From Rhodococcus coprophilus NBRC 100603 (lineage in GTDB: Bacteria > Actinomycetota > Actinomycetes > Mycobacteriales > Mycobacteriaceae): a stretch of DNA of 64,000 nucleotides. The stretch covers positions 310,001 to 374,000 of the forward strand of contig NZ_BDAM01000010.1 of assembly GCF_001895045.1 (NCBI RefSeq). Reading direction: 5' to 3'. The first letter of the stretch is position 1, and each line of letters starts with the position of its first letter. Shown here in pieces: positions 50,604-55,140 of this stretch. The translations under genes and the position numbers were made by a program. The notes under the pieces are model-generated. The model was not told the origin of the DNA, did not search any database, and saw nothing but the letters and a program-made list of their open reading frames with translations.

Positions 50604-50911
50604 CGGGCAGGGTGCGGGGATCAGGCACACGGCGAACTCTCTCCGAATTCTACTGAGGCAGAAGACCACCCGCGATCACGAGAGCGGATTTCCGCTCTCG
50701 CGAGTCGTCATGCTCCCAGATCCATGATCCACACCACCGCATCCGGCTGTACGGGGCCGAGCAGACGACTCTCCCCGGGTGGACCCCAGGCTTGTGGTTG
50801 CCGTTACGGTCCAAACATATACCCCTAGGGGTATAGTTGCCTCCCGAGGGGCGCATCCGGGCAATCGACGAAAGCCCCCGGACCGCGACACGGAAATCGA
50901 GGAGTGAACAC
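50604..50911. other. Intergenic region between the IS element and the rhodanese gene
   Basis: No gene is supported here. It holds a perfect 10-base inverted repeat CGAGAGCGGA/TCCGCTCTCG (50679-50700) with a 2-base centre, which may be a terminator remnant, and the CsoR-type operator at 50818-50835. A long minus-strand frame crosses the region but also crosses the operators and the rhodanese gene and is rejected. Confidence 0.6.
50818..50835. promoter_or_regulatory. CsoR-type operator 1 (rhodanese promoter)
   Basis: TATACCCCTAGGGGTATA is a perfect 18-bp palindrome. Its right arm runs into TATAGT (50832-50837), a good -10 hexamer. It lies 77 bp before the rhodanese ATG. It is the best-conserved of the six sites in the island and matches the A/T-flanked C4-N-G4 shape of CsoR/CstR sites. 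Confidence 0.8.
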
Positions 50912-51226
50912 ATGCGGGAAATCGACATCGAGGCCTTCTGCACTGCGTGGGAGACCGGCGCAACAGTAGTGGATGTGCGCGAAGACCATGAGTACGAGAA
51001 GGAACACATTCCCGGAGCGCTCTGGATTCCTCTTGGGGAGTTGGGTTCTCGACTTTCCGAAGTCCCTGATGCTGAAGTCGTGTATGTGATCTGCGCGTCC
51101 GGCAGACGTAGCCTGTCCGGTGCCGACATTCTCGAGAGCACAGGCCGTCGTGCAGTTTCGGTCGCTGGCGGTACGGCCGCATGGCTGCAATCCGGGCGCC
51201 CCGCAGAGCACGGTAGCGCCCGGTGA
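50912..51226 (+). CDS. Single-domain rhodanese (sulfurtransferase)
   Basis: A 104-residue rhodanese. VVDVREDHEYEKEHIPGALWIPLGEL gives the CH2A-type start, and CASGRRS (Cys61) is the six-residue active-site loop that carries a persulfide. A C-terminal VAGGTAAWLQSGRP completes the domain. It moves sulfane sulfur between thiols or from thiosulfate to an acceptor. GAGGAG lies seven bases before ATG 50912; the frame reaches 50837, but that would place coding sequence on the operator. It is first in the CsoR-type island. Confidence 0.93.
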   Translation: MREIDIEAFCTAWETGATVVDVREDHEYEKEHIPGALWIPLGELGSRLSEVPDAEVVYVICASGRRSLSGADILESTGRRAVSVAGGTAAWLQSGRPAEHGSAR

Positions 51227-51304
51227 GCACAGGCGCCGAAAATGCGCCGAGCATGCGACCGGCCGTGGATCCACCACGGTGACAACCAACACGTGGAGAA
51301 ACAC

Positions 51305-51320
51305 ATACCCCTGGGGGTAT
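51305..51320. promoter_or_regulatory. CsoR-type operator 2 (small Cys-rich gene promoter)
   Basis: ATACCCCTGGGGGTAT is followed directly by TATTAT (51318-51323) as a possible -10 hexamer. It lies 34 bp before the start of the 55-residue gene. Confidence 0.75.
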
Positions 51321-51354
51321 TATGGAAGATGATTGCAACCCCTGAGGAGAATCC

Positions 51355-51522
51355 ATGTGTTACCCCGTTACCTGCCCAACCTGCAAGAAGACGACCTGGG
51401 GAGGGTGCGGACGGCACGTCGACAGCGTGATGAAGTCCGTCCCCGCCTCCCGTCGCTGCACATGCAAGAAGGACGAGCCCAGCACCACGACCGGCTTCTT
51501 CAGTCGGCTTTTCGGTCGCTGA
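51355..51522 (+). CDS. Small Cys-rich protein of 55 residues
   Basis: A short frame starting MCYPVTCPTCKKTTWGGCGRHV with GAGGAG five bases upstream of the ATG. It has six cysteines, in CPTC (7 and 10), Cys2, Cys18 and a CTC pair (35 and 37), and a basic, aromatic tail ending GFFSRLFGR. Short proteins opening MCYPVxC are found in many actinobacteria and some fungi; no function is known to me. The pattern could bind zinc or copper or react with sulfane sulfur. It has its own operator copy, so it belongs to the same regulon as the rhodanese and MmpL genes. Confidence 0.8.
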   Translation: MCYPVTCPTCKKTTWGGCGRHVDSVMKSVPASRRCTCKKDEPSTTTGFFSRLFGR

Positions 51523-51739
51523 CTCCGTAAAATAAGGCGGCCCAGACTCTTTCGCCGATCCGGCAGAGACCGCTCGAACGCGGCCGCCGCCTTCGGCCGG
51601 CAAACCCCGCCCGCCTCGCTCCGGGCAGCTCAGGTACGTGCATTCCGGCACTGACGAAACCTGTCTACGACTGCGATTCAGCGCCGGACCGCCGAGCGTC
51701 TTCTCACCCTCCCTGTCACTCGACCACCGCCCGTCCAGG

Positions 51740-51776
51740 TACCCCCCCCGGGTATTTTATTACCCCGGGGGGTATA
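51740..51776. promoter_or_regulatory. CsoR-type operators 3 and 4, tandem
   Basis: TACCCCCCCCGGGTA (51740-51754) and TACCCCGGGGGGTA (51761-51774) lie about 20 bp apart centre to centre, two helical turns. The second runs into TATATC at 51773-51778. They lie 120-150 bp before the MmpL start. Confidence 0.7.
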
Positions 51777-51861
51777 TCGTGTATGGCCATCCCCCGCGTG
51801 GCGACTGCCCGAGGACGGTCGCTCGTCGCGCAAGTTCAGTGGGTGCACTGCACCCGAATTA

Positions 51862-51877
51862 ATACCCCTACCCGTAT
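51862..51877. promoter_or_regulatory. CsoR-type operator 5 (MmpL gene leader)
   Basis: ATACCCCTACCCGTAT has an intact left arm and a weaker right arm (CCCGTAT for GGGGTAT), followed by TATAGG. It ends 15 bases before the MmpL start and covers the region of its ribosome-binding site. Confidence 0.6.
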
Positions 51878-54076: not shown

Positions 54077-54083
54077 CGGGGGA

Positions 54084-54113
54084 ATGCGTGGTGGGACTCA
54101 CCCCACCACGCAT
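54084..54113 (+). terminator. Hairpin after the MmpL gene, touching operator 6
   Basis: ATGCGTGGTGGG (54084-54095) and CCCACCACGCAT (54102-54113) form a perfect 12-bp stem with loop ACTCAC, eight bases past the MmpL stop. There is no U-tract. Its right arm overlaps the csoR operator by two bases. Confidence 0.8.
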
Positions 54114-54127
54114 ACCCCCTAGGGTAT
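54112..54127. promoter_or_regulatory. CsoR-type operator 6 (csoR-like gene promoter)
   Basis: ATACCCCCTAGGGTAT is a near-palindrome whose right end continues into TATACT (54125-54130), a strong -10 hexamer. It is 27 bp upstream of the csoR-like ATG, fitting autorepression. Confidence 0.8.
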
Positions 54128-54154
54128 ACTGATAGACAGCCGAAAGGAGTCACA

Positions 54155-54424
54155 ATGGCTTCAAACGACCAGAGCATGGCACCCGTGCTCAACCGGTTGC
54201 GTCGCGCACACGGGCAACTCGCCGGCGTGATCTCGATGATCGAGAACGGCCGCGAATGCACCGATGTGGTGACCCAGATCGCTGCGGTGTCGCGCGCTCT
54301 GGACCGGGCAGGATTCAAGCTCGTCGCCGGTGGTTTACGCGAATGCCTCACCGGAGAACCAGGGGACGGCAAGGAACCCATGACCGAAGCCGAACTGGAG
54401 AAGCTCTTCCTCGCCCTCGCGTGA
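54155..54424 (+). CDS. CsoR/CstR-family transcriptional repressor with Cys-Gly-Cys site
   Basis: An 89-residue all-helical repressor of the CsoR/RcnR family ([34 protein letters not shown]). Copper sensors of the family use Cys-His-Cys. Here Cys35 and Cys64 are kept, but the His position is Gly60 (AGGLREC). Loss of that His with both Cys kept is characteristic of CstR, which forms a di- to tetrasulfide link between the two cysteines and releases DNA on exposure to persulfides. AAAGGAG is six bases from the ATG. Gene context (rhodanese, DUF302, DUF2892) supports this reading; copper sensing is less likely but not excluded. Confidence 0.88.
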
Positions 54425-54449
54425 AGAATTCGCAAAAAAGGAGATGATC

Positions 54450-54704
54450 GTGAAACGCCTTCCACGTCATGAGGGGTGGACCGTCGAACGCGTCGTTCCG
54501 CTCATGGCCGGGGTGATGGTCCTGCTGAGCGTGGGACTCACACTGGCCTTCTCACCGTGGTGGCTTCTCCTCACCGGATTCGTGGGCGCCAACCTGGTCT
54601 TCTATTCCGCGGCCGGATGGTGCCCCGCAAGCCTGATCATGGAGAAGGCGGGCCTGGAGCGGGCGAGCTGCCGCATCTCCCCGGCCACCACCCGAACCCA
54701 CTGA
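54450..54704 (+). CDS. DUF2892 family inner-membrane protein (YgaP-tail-like)
   Basis: An 84-residue protein with two membrane helices (VVPLMAGVMVLLSVGLTLAF and WWLLLTGFVGANLVFYSAAGW) and the DUF2892 signature GWCPASLIMEKAGL. This module forms the membrane part of the YgaP rhodanese and occurs in sulfide and persulfide gene sets. The GTG at 54450 is chosen because AAAAGGAG is seven bases upstream; the ATG at 54444 touches that site. It is downstream of csoR in one operon. Confidence 0.88.
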   Translation: MKRLPRHEGWTVERVVPLMAGVMVLLSVGLTLAFSPWWLLLTGFVGANLVFYSAAGWCPASLIMEKAGLERASCRISPATTRTH

Positions 54705-54735
54705 AACAGCCCCTCGGGGCGAACGGAGACCGATC

Positions 54736-55140
54736 ATGAAACTCGCACTGTCCACCACTCTGCGGACCACCTTTGCCGACGCCGTCGAGAAGACCCGGAC
54801 CGCGTTGCAGGAACAGGGTTTCGGAGTACTCACCGAAATCGACATGCAGGCCACCCTGAAGGCCAAGCTCGATGAGGACATGGAGCGTTACCTCATCCTC
54901 GGTGCCTGCAACCCGCCGCTCGCGCACCGCGCCGTCGAAGTGAACCGTCAGATCGGGCTACTGCTGCCCTGCAACGTCATCGTCCGCGAGGATCCGACCG
55001 TCGAAGGCACCGTCCTGGTGGAAGCGATGAACCCGCAACTGATGGTGCAGGTCACCGGGGAGCCCGAACTCGAGGCCGTCGCGGAGGACGCCGGAAAACG
55101 CCTCCAGGCTGCGATCGACACGCTCGCCGCCCAGCACTGA
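54736..55140 (+). CDS. DUF302 domain protein
   Basis: A 134-residue DUF302 protein. It has the typical segments ADAVEKTRTALQEQGFGVLTEIDM, YLILGACNPPLAHRAVEVNRQIGLLLPCNVIV and VLVEAMNPQLM. Two cysteines, in GACNP and LPCNV, are conserved in the family and face each other in known structures. The biochemical role is unknown; it co-occurs with sulfur oxidation and CstR-type operons. GGAG precedes the ATG by seven bases. It is the last gene of the island. Confidence 0.9.
   Translation: MKLALSTTLRTTFADAVEKTRTALQEQGFGVLTEIDMQATLKAKLDEDMERYLILGACNPPLAHRAVEVNRQIGLLLPCNVIVREDPTVEGTVLVEAMNPQLMVQVTGEPELEAVAEDAGKRLQAAIDTLAAQH

Follow-up and report, generated by a model that had tools for sequence, protein, structure and literature searches.

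Persulfide regulons are known for sulfur oxidation, sulfur transfer and the export of sulfite. Our results suggest that in Rhodococcus coprophilus NBRC 100603 such a regulon, under a CsoR-family repressor of the CstR type, also includes an MmpL-type transporter of the resistance-nodulation-division (RND) group. The window analysed, 64,000 nucleotides of contig NZ_BDAM01000010.1 (positions 310,001 to 374,000), contains six plus-strand genes, encoding a rhodanese, a Cys-rich protein of 55 residues (CYS55), the MmpL protein, the repressor, a YgaP-like transmembrane protein (YgaP-TM) and a DUF302 protein. From the operators and gene order across related genomes, we regard it as highly likely that mmpL belongs to the CstR regulon. 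The coupling is real and conserved and is not described in the literature searched; no report pairing MmpL with CstR was found among the sources covered, most subscription journals lying outside that coverage. The recurrence of the pairing in many sampled actinobacteria points to an unrecognised export step against toxic sulfur. The genes and predicted operators of the window cluster are as follows.

50819..50834: operator 1, ATACCCCTAGGGGTAT, zero mismatches to ATACCCCnnGGGGTAT, 5' of the rhodanese gene
50912..51226, plus strand: single-domain rhodanese, 104 aa (PF00581, 53.8 bits, cut-off 22.2)
51305..51320: operator 2, ATACCCCTGGGGGTAT, zero mismatches to ATACCCCnnGGGGTAT, 5' of the Cys-rich gene
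51355..51522, plus strand: CYS55, Cys-rich protein, 55 aa, without a Pfam or NCBIfam match
51739..51755: operator 3a, degenerate, 17 bp with a middle one base longer, 5' of mmpL
51760..51775: operator 3b, TTACCCCGGGGGGTAT, one mismatch to ATACCCCnnGGGGTAT, 5' of mmpL
51862..51877: operator 3c, degenerate, three mismatches with one arm altered, 15 bp 5' of the mmpL start
51893..54076, plus strand: MmpL-type RND transporter, 727 aa (PF03176)
54112..54127: operator 4, ATACCCCCTAGGGTAT, one mismatch to ATACCCCnnGGGGTAT, 5' of cstR
54155..54424, plus strand: CstR-like repressor, DUF156/CsoR family, 89 aa (PF02583, 79.1 bits, cut-off 22.8)
54444..54704, plus strand: YgaP-TM (DUF2892), 86 aa (PF11127, 38.8 bits, cut-off 25.3)
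54736..55140, plus strand: DUF302 protein, 134 aa, with a conserved pair Cys58/Cys79 (PF03625, 86 bits)

The initial annotation had placed six copies of one palindrome in this cluster, before the rhodanese gene, the Cys-rich gene, mmpL (three copies) and the repressor gene (one). All are where it had put them; counted against ATACCCCnnGGGGTAT, our 16-bp reference palindrome of the ATACCCC/GGGGTAT type, four are good copies with zero or one mismatch and the other two are degenerate. At up to three mismatches ATACCCCnnGGGGTAT has 7 matches in the window, 5 of them inside the cluster, against 1.04 expected and a maximum of 6 over 100 shuffles, and this clustering is not due to chance. The right arm (GGTAT) of operators 1, 2 and 4 merges with a plausible -10 hexamer (TATAGT, TATTAT and TATACT, respectively), and binding of the repressor there would be expected to shut off the promoter. 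Across the whole genome (4,549,097 bp), the 16-mer occurs with two mismatches or fewer at 11 places, against 2 for a reversed control. This genome search, proposed at the outset, located all eight sites that have zero or one mismatch in the window cluster and one other, together 5,042 bp; random placement would put all eight there with p of about 2e-24, base composition not being taken into account. The exact pattern ATACCn6GGTAT is found at 7 places, 5 in the two clusters and 2 elsewhere that lack the C-run (C1:927375 and C2:190895 of G000, the window's own genome; C denotes its contigs, G the sampled genomes and L the fetched loci). Operator-like sites with two mismatches are present elsewhere in this genome at C3:337308 and C3:478303 (L006, L007). 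Rfam gave no match to a known RNA element at gathering scores in 49400-55600.

The second cluster, with which contig C8 ends (L004), contains a cstR paralog, a TauE gene and a rhodanese-YgaP gene, together with:

L004 10373-11752: metallo-beta-lactamase/rhodanese gene, here called dioxygenase-type
L004 from 11835, cut by the contig end: second CYS55 copy

Over nearly its whole length the lactamase/rhodanese protein aligns with solved proteins of the same make-up, its first half matching the persulfide dioxygenase ETHE1, and we call it a putative dioxygenase-type enzyme on these grounds. With its operators of the same type and its sulfur genes, the second cluster tells what kind of regulon this is; the window cluster would be one half of a two-cluster CstR regulon.

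The copper sensors CsoR and RicR have a Cys-His-Cys copper site, the formaldehyde sensor FrmR typically lacks Cys at the second position and CstR proteins have Cys at both of the CsoR positions with no His ligand between them. The window repressor, read again in the sequence, has Cys35, Gly60 and Cys64, as initially noted; Gly60 sets it apart from CsoR and RicR, and Cys64 from FrmR, whose NCBIfam model it matches with 29.2 bits (cut-off 133). A Cys/non-His/Cys pattern is present in 117 of the 123 distinct repressor sequences from our loci (the query row included), the six exceptions being two with His60 (the protein of contig C5 and one in L140), two without Cys64 and two cut in the alignment. 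As is typical of CstR, operators like ATACCn6GGTAT precede sulfurtransferase and dioxygenase genes. For ScCsoR of Streptomyces coelicolor, such an operator, release by polysulfide and a need for both Cys37 and Cys66 have been shown by experiment (PMC7533328). Since the residues and the ScCsoR-like operator are joined by a second cluster, in which this operator type goes with a dioxygenase-type gene, TauE and a rhodanese, we are confident that the window cluster would be under CstR-type control, in agreement with the initial annotation; by analogy with ScCsoR, the inducer may be a persulfide or polysulfide. It is very improbable that the repressor senses copper or another metal and that the cluster confers metal resistance. 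Such a role might be suspected from the nearest named NCBIfam model, that of RicR, a copper sensor (44.7 bits, well short of its cut-off of 175), and from the cadmium-resistance genes that adjoin the pBD2 copy of the cluster, but Gly60 replaces the His ligand, none of the six window genes is a metal pump and the same operator type precedes the dioxygenase-type gene. The genome also has a separate copper-type CsoR; among its three PF02583 genes, both cluster copies have Cys35/Gly60/Cys64 whereas the third, on contig C5, is of the copper type and has the His, and C5 has none of these operators at two mismatches or fewer. Control by copper is hence disfavoured by repressor residues, operator distribution and neighbouring genes alike.

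Orthologs of the window MmpL (at least about 60% identity, followed by a drop to 35%) were found in 115 of 251 sampled genomes of the window's family. Sixty family loci were fetched from the listed places and one 35% paralog (L091) was excluded; at the remaining 59, cstR lies at -6 to +8 kb in 51, and DUF302, YgaP-TM and the Cys-rich gene are present in 50, 31 and 25, respectively. An operator lies no more than 300 bp before mmpL at 41 of the 59, while outside -5 to +6 kb of mmpL there is 1 operator in 374,807 bp. At the other eight of the 59 loci no cstR is nearby, but their genomes (G051, G214, G134, G064, G021, G047, G146 and G025) have one elsewhere. By genome, both proteins occur in 105 of the 251, MmpL only in 10, CstR only in 54 and neither in 82 (Fisher p 1e-18, which ignores kinship), and eight of the ten MmpL-only genomes have a more divergent cstR beside mmpL (L070, L083, L084 and L086-L090), the other two (G168 and G198) not being among those fetched. 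The 54 genomes with CstR and without MmpL include genomes of genus g29. As a control, the 1.5 kb around mmpL was compared between the 30 best ortholog loci, the window among them, and 34 loci of other MMPL proteins; an operator or cstR is present there at 29 of the former and at 0 of the latter. Double operators before mmpL are 30-37 bp apart in 35 of 44 loci, a count drawn from 87 loci that include L091. The neighbour scan around mmpL covered eight families, and its dioxygenase and rhodanese profiles share the rhodanese domain, so that a dioxygenase mark at a locus may be a rhodanese gene. The placement of MmpL in a CstR-like regulon, first made from the window alone, is thus borne out across the family and class loci and by the 29/30 versus 0/34 control.

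When the 59 family and 27 class loci (86 in total) are taken together with the window, 70 have a linked cstR. When operators within 4.5 kb at up to one mismatch are counted, 49 of the 70 linked loci have only the ATACCCCnnGGGGTAT type, 15 only ATCCCCCnnGGGGGAT, 1 both and 5 neither. The second type, ATCCCCCnnGGGGGAT, occurs at L083-L090, L202, L209, L216, L218, L225, L229 and L230 together with matching repressor changes. The two groups are told apart by nine columns of the repressor alignment, for example residues 13, 16 and 21 of the window repressor near the N terminus (numbering mapped by hand), which are mostly Asn/Arg/Gln in the ATACCCCnnGGGGTAT group and Thr/Lys/His in the ATCCCCCnnGGGGGAT group. 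Judged from these alignments, the two operator types follow two repressor types, an apparent natural specificity switch. The distances between CstR proteins also correlate with those between MmpL proteins (r = 0.80 over 2,415 pairs), and kinship accounts for part of both this correlation and the operator-repressor match.

A scan of named genomes, a set that overlaps the family sample, had cstR at 75 of the best 80 of 292 loci, and carriers among these best 80 include Rhodococcus, Nocardia, Williamsia, Gordonia, Prescottella, Tomitella, Lolliginicoccus, Prauserella and an Aeromicrobium metagenome-assembled genome (MAG). The class sample has MmpL in 33 of 345 genomes, 7 of them from the window's family; at the 27 class loci from outside the family, cstR is present in 18 and DUF302 in 16, and in eight (L206, L209, L213, L218, L224, L226, L227 and L230) dioxygenase-type, rhodanese and TauE genes precede mmpL on the same strand. 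In the phylum sample, which includes the window's family and class, MmpL was detected in 15 of 246 genomes. At the 12 fetched loci from outside the class, an operator precedes mmpL in 2 and YgaP-TM is near mmpL in 8 (just before it in seven, just after it in L294), and a partial sulfur setting is seen in L292 and L294 (dioxygenase-type gene and TauE) and in L295 and L301 (DUF302). A fused YgaP-MmpL protein had been suspected in these other classes and was not found, the genes being adjacent. Beside the start of mmpL in L297, L299, L302 and L303, and in L207 of the class set, is a gene for an ArsR-like protein that has a Cys-x3-Cys motif close to its C terminus; these mmpL loci lack a neighbouring cstR, and in some YgaP-TM lies between. 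The ArsR-like protein is possibly a different thiol sensor for the same transporter. MmpL is also present in 44 plasmid records, 41 of them from Rhodococcus. On pRHL3 of R. jostii RHA1 (RHA1_RS43895-RS43925), rhodanese, MMPL, repressor, DUF2892, DUF302, TauE and MBL-fold genes stand in a row, with TusA, DsrE and thioredoxin genes nearby; mmpL is RHA1_RS43900 there, the DUF302 gene RHA1_RS43915 and the small gene RHA1_RS51140. Three or four MmpL copies per genome, consistent with plasmid spread, were seen in G244, G076 and G059. The same gene set, which the initial annotation had suggested seeking in other actinobacteria, recurs in the family, class and plasmid samples.

The window MmpL has the PF03176 domain, the RND transmembrane fold and the fold of MmpL3, and scores 219.3 bits against the NCBIfam MmpL3 equivalog (cut-off 1400). 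It has zero cysteines. Its Asp-Tyr pairs D274/Y275 and D618/Y619, of a kind with a role in the RND proton relay, align with those of MmpL3 and are invariant in 12 aligned rows. CYS55 has Cys2, Cys7, Cys10, Cys18, Cys35, Trp15 and His21 invariant in 30 aligned rows and a conserved GFFxRLFGR at its C-terminal end. No Pfam or NCBIfam model covers the family; seven weak Pfam families each match one or two of the 30 rows and were taken as chance. The gene occurs in 119 of 296 sampled class genomes, and 27 of 30 fetched loci have a sulfur gene (19) or otherwise an operator (8 more) within 1.5 kb; on plasmids, no gene is listed at its place in 21 of the 25 rows shown, in a gene table that is incomplete. 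Similar small proteins are presumably present in fungi and plants. Of 121 DUF302 sequences, 120 and 119 have the first and second Cys of the pair, in one order or the other, and a relative with a solved structure is PDB 1j3m, from Thermus. DUF302 genes are found in the sox clusters of sulfur oxidisers, with their function given as unknown in the accessible part of one report (PMC5037610). The earlier assignments of the rhodanese, DUF2892 and DUF302 genes agree with their Pfam matches (PF00581, PF11127 and PF03625). The rhodanese has the catalytic Cys loop CASGRRS, read directly in the sequence, and its start was picked from the ribosome-binding site and the operator position. The cluster lies between an IS481-like transposase remnant and an opposite-strand CoA-transferase gene; the transposase (49524-50602), directly upstream, is in two frames (an HTH/LZ_Tnp_IS481 part and an rve_3 part) and looks broken.

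Taken together, we lean towards a two-cluster CstR regulon in which MmpL would remove hydrophobic sulfane-sulfur species or a persulfide or thiol adduct. What the sequences offer for it are the operators, the repressor residues, the second cluster, the conserved linkage, the repressor-operator co-variation, the MmpL fold and the Asp-Tyr pairs. In an unstressed cell, CstR would sit on the palindromes that reach into the -10 elements and the genes would be off. Persulfide or polysulfide would modify Cys35, with Cys64, and CstR would leave the DNA, allowing production of rhodanese, CYS55, MmpL, CstR, YgaP-TM and DUF302 from the window cluster. The other cluster would then supply the dioxygenase-type enzyme, TauE and rhodanese-YgaP, along with a further copy each of CstR and CYS55. 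Judged by gene type, rhodanese and dioxygenase may convert sulfane sulfur to sulfite or thiosulfate, which TauE would export. MmpL, as a proton-driven RND protein of MmpL3 fold, might take from the membrane what these enzymes cannot handle, either hydrophobic sulfane sulfur (polysulfane or S8) or a persulfide or thiol adduct. We infer the proton drive, the direction of transport and the substrate; with fold and gene company as the guide, export of a sulfur-bearing or thiol-linked molecule by MmpL is about evenly balanced. It is doubtful, if conceivable, that the subfamily is a dedicated sulfane-sulfur exporter (for S8, polysulfanes or mycothiol persulfide), loaded by DUF302 and CYS55 as cytosolic carriers and Cys-free against attack by its cargo. 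If this were true, actinobacteria would have a route of toxic-sulfur export beside oxidation. Cys depletion, considered as proof of sulfur contact, is weakened by other MMPL proteins that are also Cys-poor.

Several observations weigh against a sulfur-exporting MmpL as part of this regulon. The nearest solved relatives export lipid (MmpL3) or siderophore (MmpL4/5), not sulfur, and 5 of 33 other MMPL proteins are Cys-free too, low Cys being partly a trait of small MmpLs. CstR occurs without MmpL in 54 of the 159 CstR genomes of the family, indicating that the regulon works without MmpL, and among 18 sampled genomes of the window's genus MmpL is in 4 and CstR in 17. A neighbouring CstR is absent at 9 of the 27 class loci and at 11 of the 12 loci fetched from outside the class. 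The linked mmpL-cstR loci are, moreover, related and not independent. The lipid-exporting relatives also raise the possibility, which we consider unlikely, that the same persulfide-sensing regulon uses MmpL to move lipids that repair or tighten a membrane which H2S, polysulfide or S8 has damaged or entered, with no sulfur cargo. MmpL3 lipid exporters are its closest relatives in structure and sequence, and many of the named carriers belong to genera of mycolate makers; however, MmpL is also present in Prauserella, the Aeromicrobium MAG and other classes of the phylum (lipid genes were not sought among the eight families of the neighbour scan). Equally, CstR may be a general thiol-stress switch and MmpL a pump that expels mycothiol conjugates or xenobiotics of an electrophilic or thiol-reactive kind. 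Many of the listed plasmids among the 44 with MmpL are from oil- or soil-derived rhodococci, and control of an RND drug pump by a MarR repressor that senses sulfane sulfur has been reported (PMC11211675), whereas the recurring neighbours found here are sulfur genes (few other families were scanned); we think this role improbable as well. A specific RND/MmpL subfamily is tied to a persulfide regulon in many sampled actinobacteria. On the favoured reading of sulfane-sulfur or adduct removal, this would give one MmpL group a sulfur-linked role and provide a first handle on DUF302 and CYS55. As the set is on plasmid pRHL3, MmpL and CYS55 are testable together in R. jostii RHA1.

The closest known system is ScCsoR, which shares with the window a CsoR-family repressor with two Cys and the 16-bp ATACCn6GGTAT operator, present in two copies in the Scpdo promoter, and, with the regulon described here, control of a persulfide dioxygenase, a rhodanese, TauE and the repressor itself (PMC7533328). 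Four genes are named in that circuit, and MmpL, DUF302 and a Cys-rich mini-protein are not among them in the accessible text (PMC7533328). CstR of Staphylococcus aureus and its relatives are also CsoR-family proteins with two reactive Cys, and CstR homologs repress rhodaneses, sulfite exporters and SQR (PMC10318464); unlike in the window, an MmpL-type transporter is not mentioned in the accessible part. The SUL module of Antarctic Arthrobacter plasmids resembles our clusters in its predicted CsoR regulator, small unknown protein, two rhodaneses, sulfur dioxygenase, TauE and DUF302, but its transporter is an MFS protein, and no operator or MmpL is given in the accessible text (PMC6305408). MmpL3 and MmpL4/5 have approximately 25% identity to the window MmpL. 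The zero-valent sulfur transporter YedE1E2 is comparable in transporting sulfane sulfur, a function only proposed for MmpL here, whereas it acts in uptake, belongs to another protein family and requires Cys, of which MmpL has none (PMC10812762). The initial annotation had called an exporter under such control unexpected. For the MmpL type this holds in the literature searched, but for RND pumps in general it does not, as in Pseudomonas aeruginosa the repressor MexR senses sulfane sulfur and releases the RND pump MexAB-OprM; MexR is, however, a MarR-type repressor, and MexAB-OprM is a multidrug pump that the accessible text does not place among sulfur-oxidation genes (PMC11211675). Set beside these systems, the CstR regulon of R. 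coprophilus is the known type plus a dedicated RND arm.

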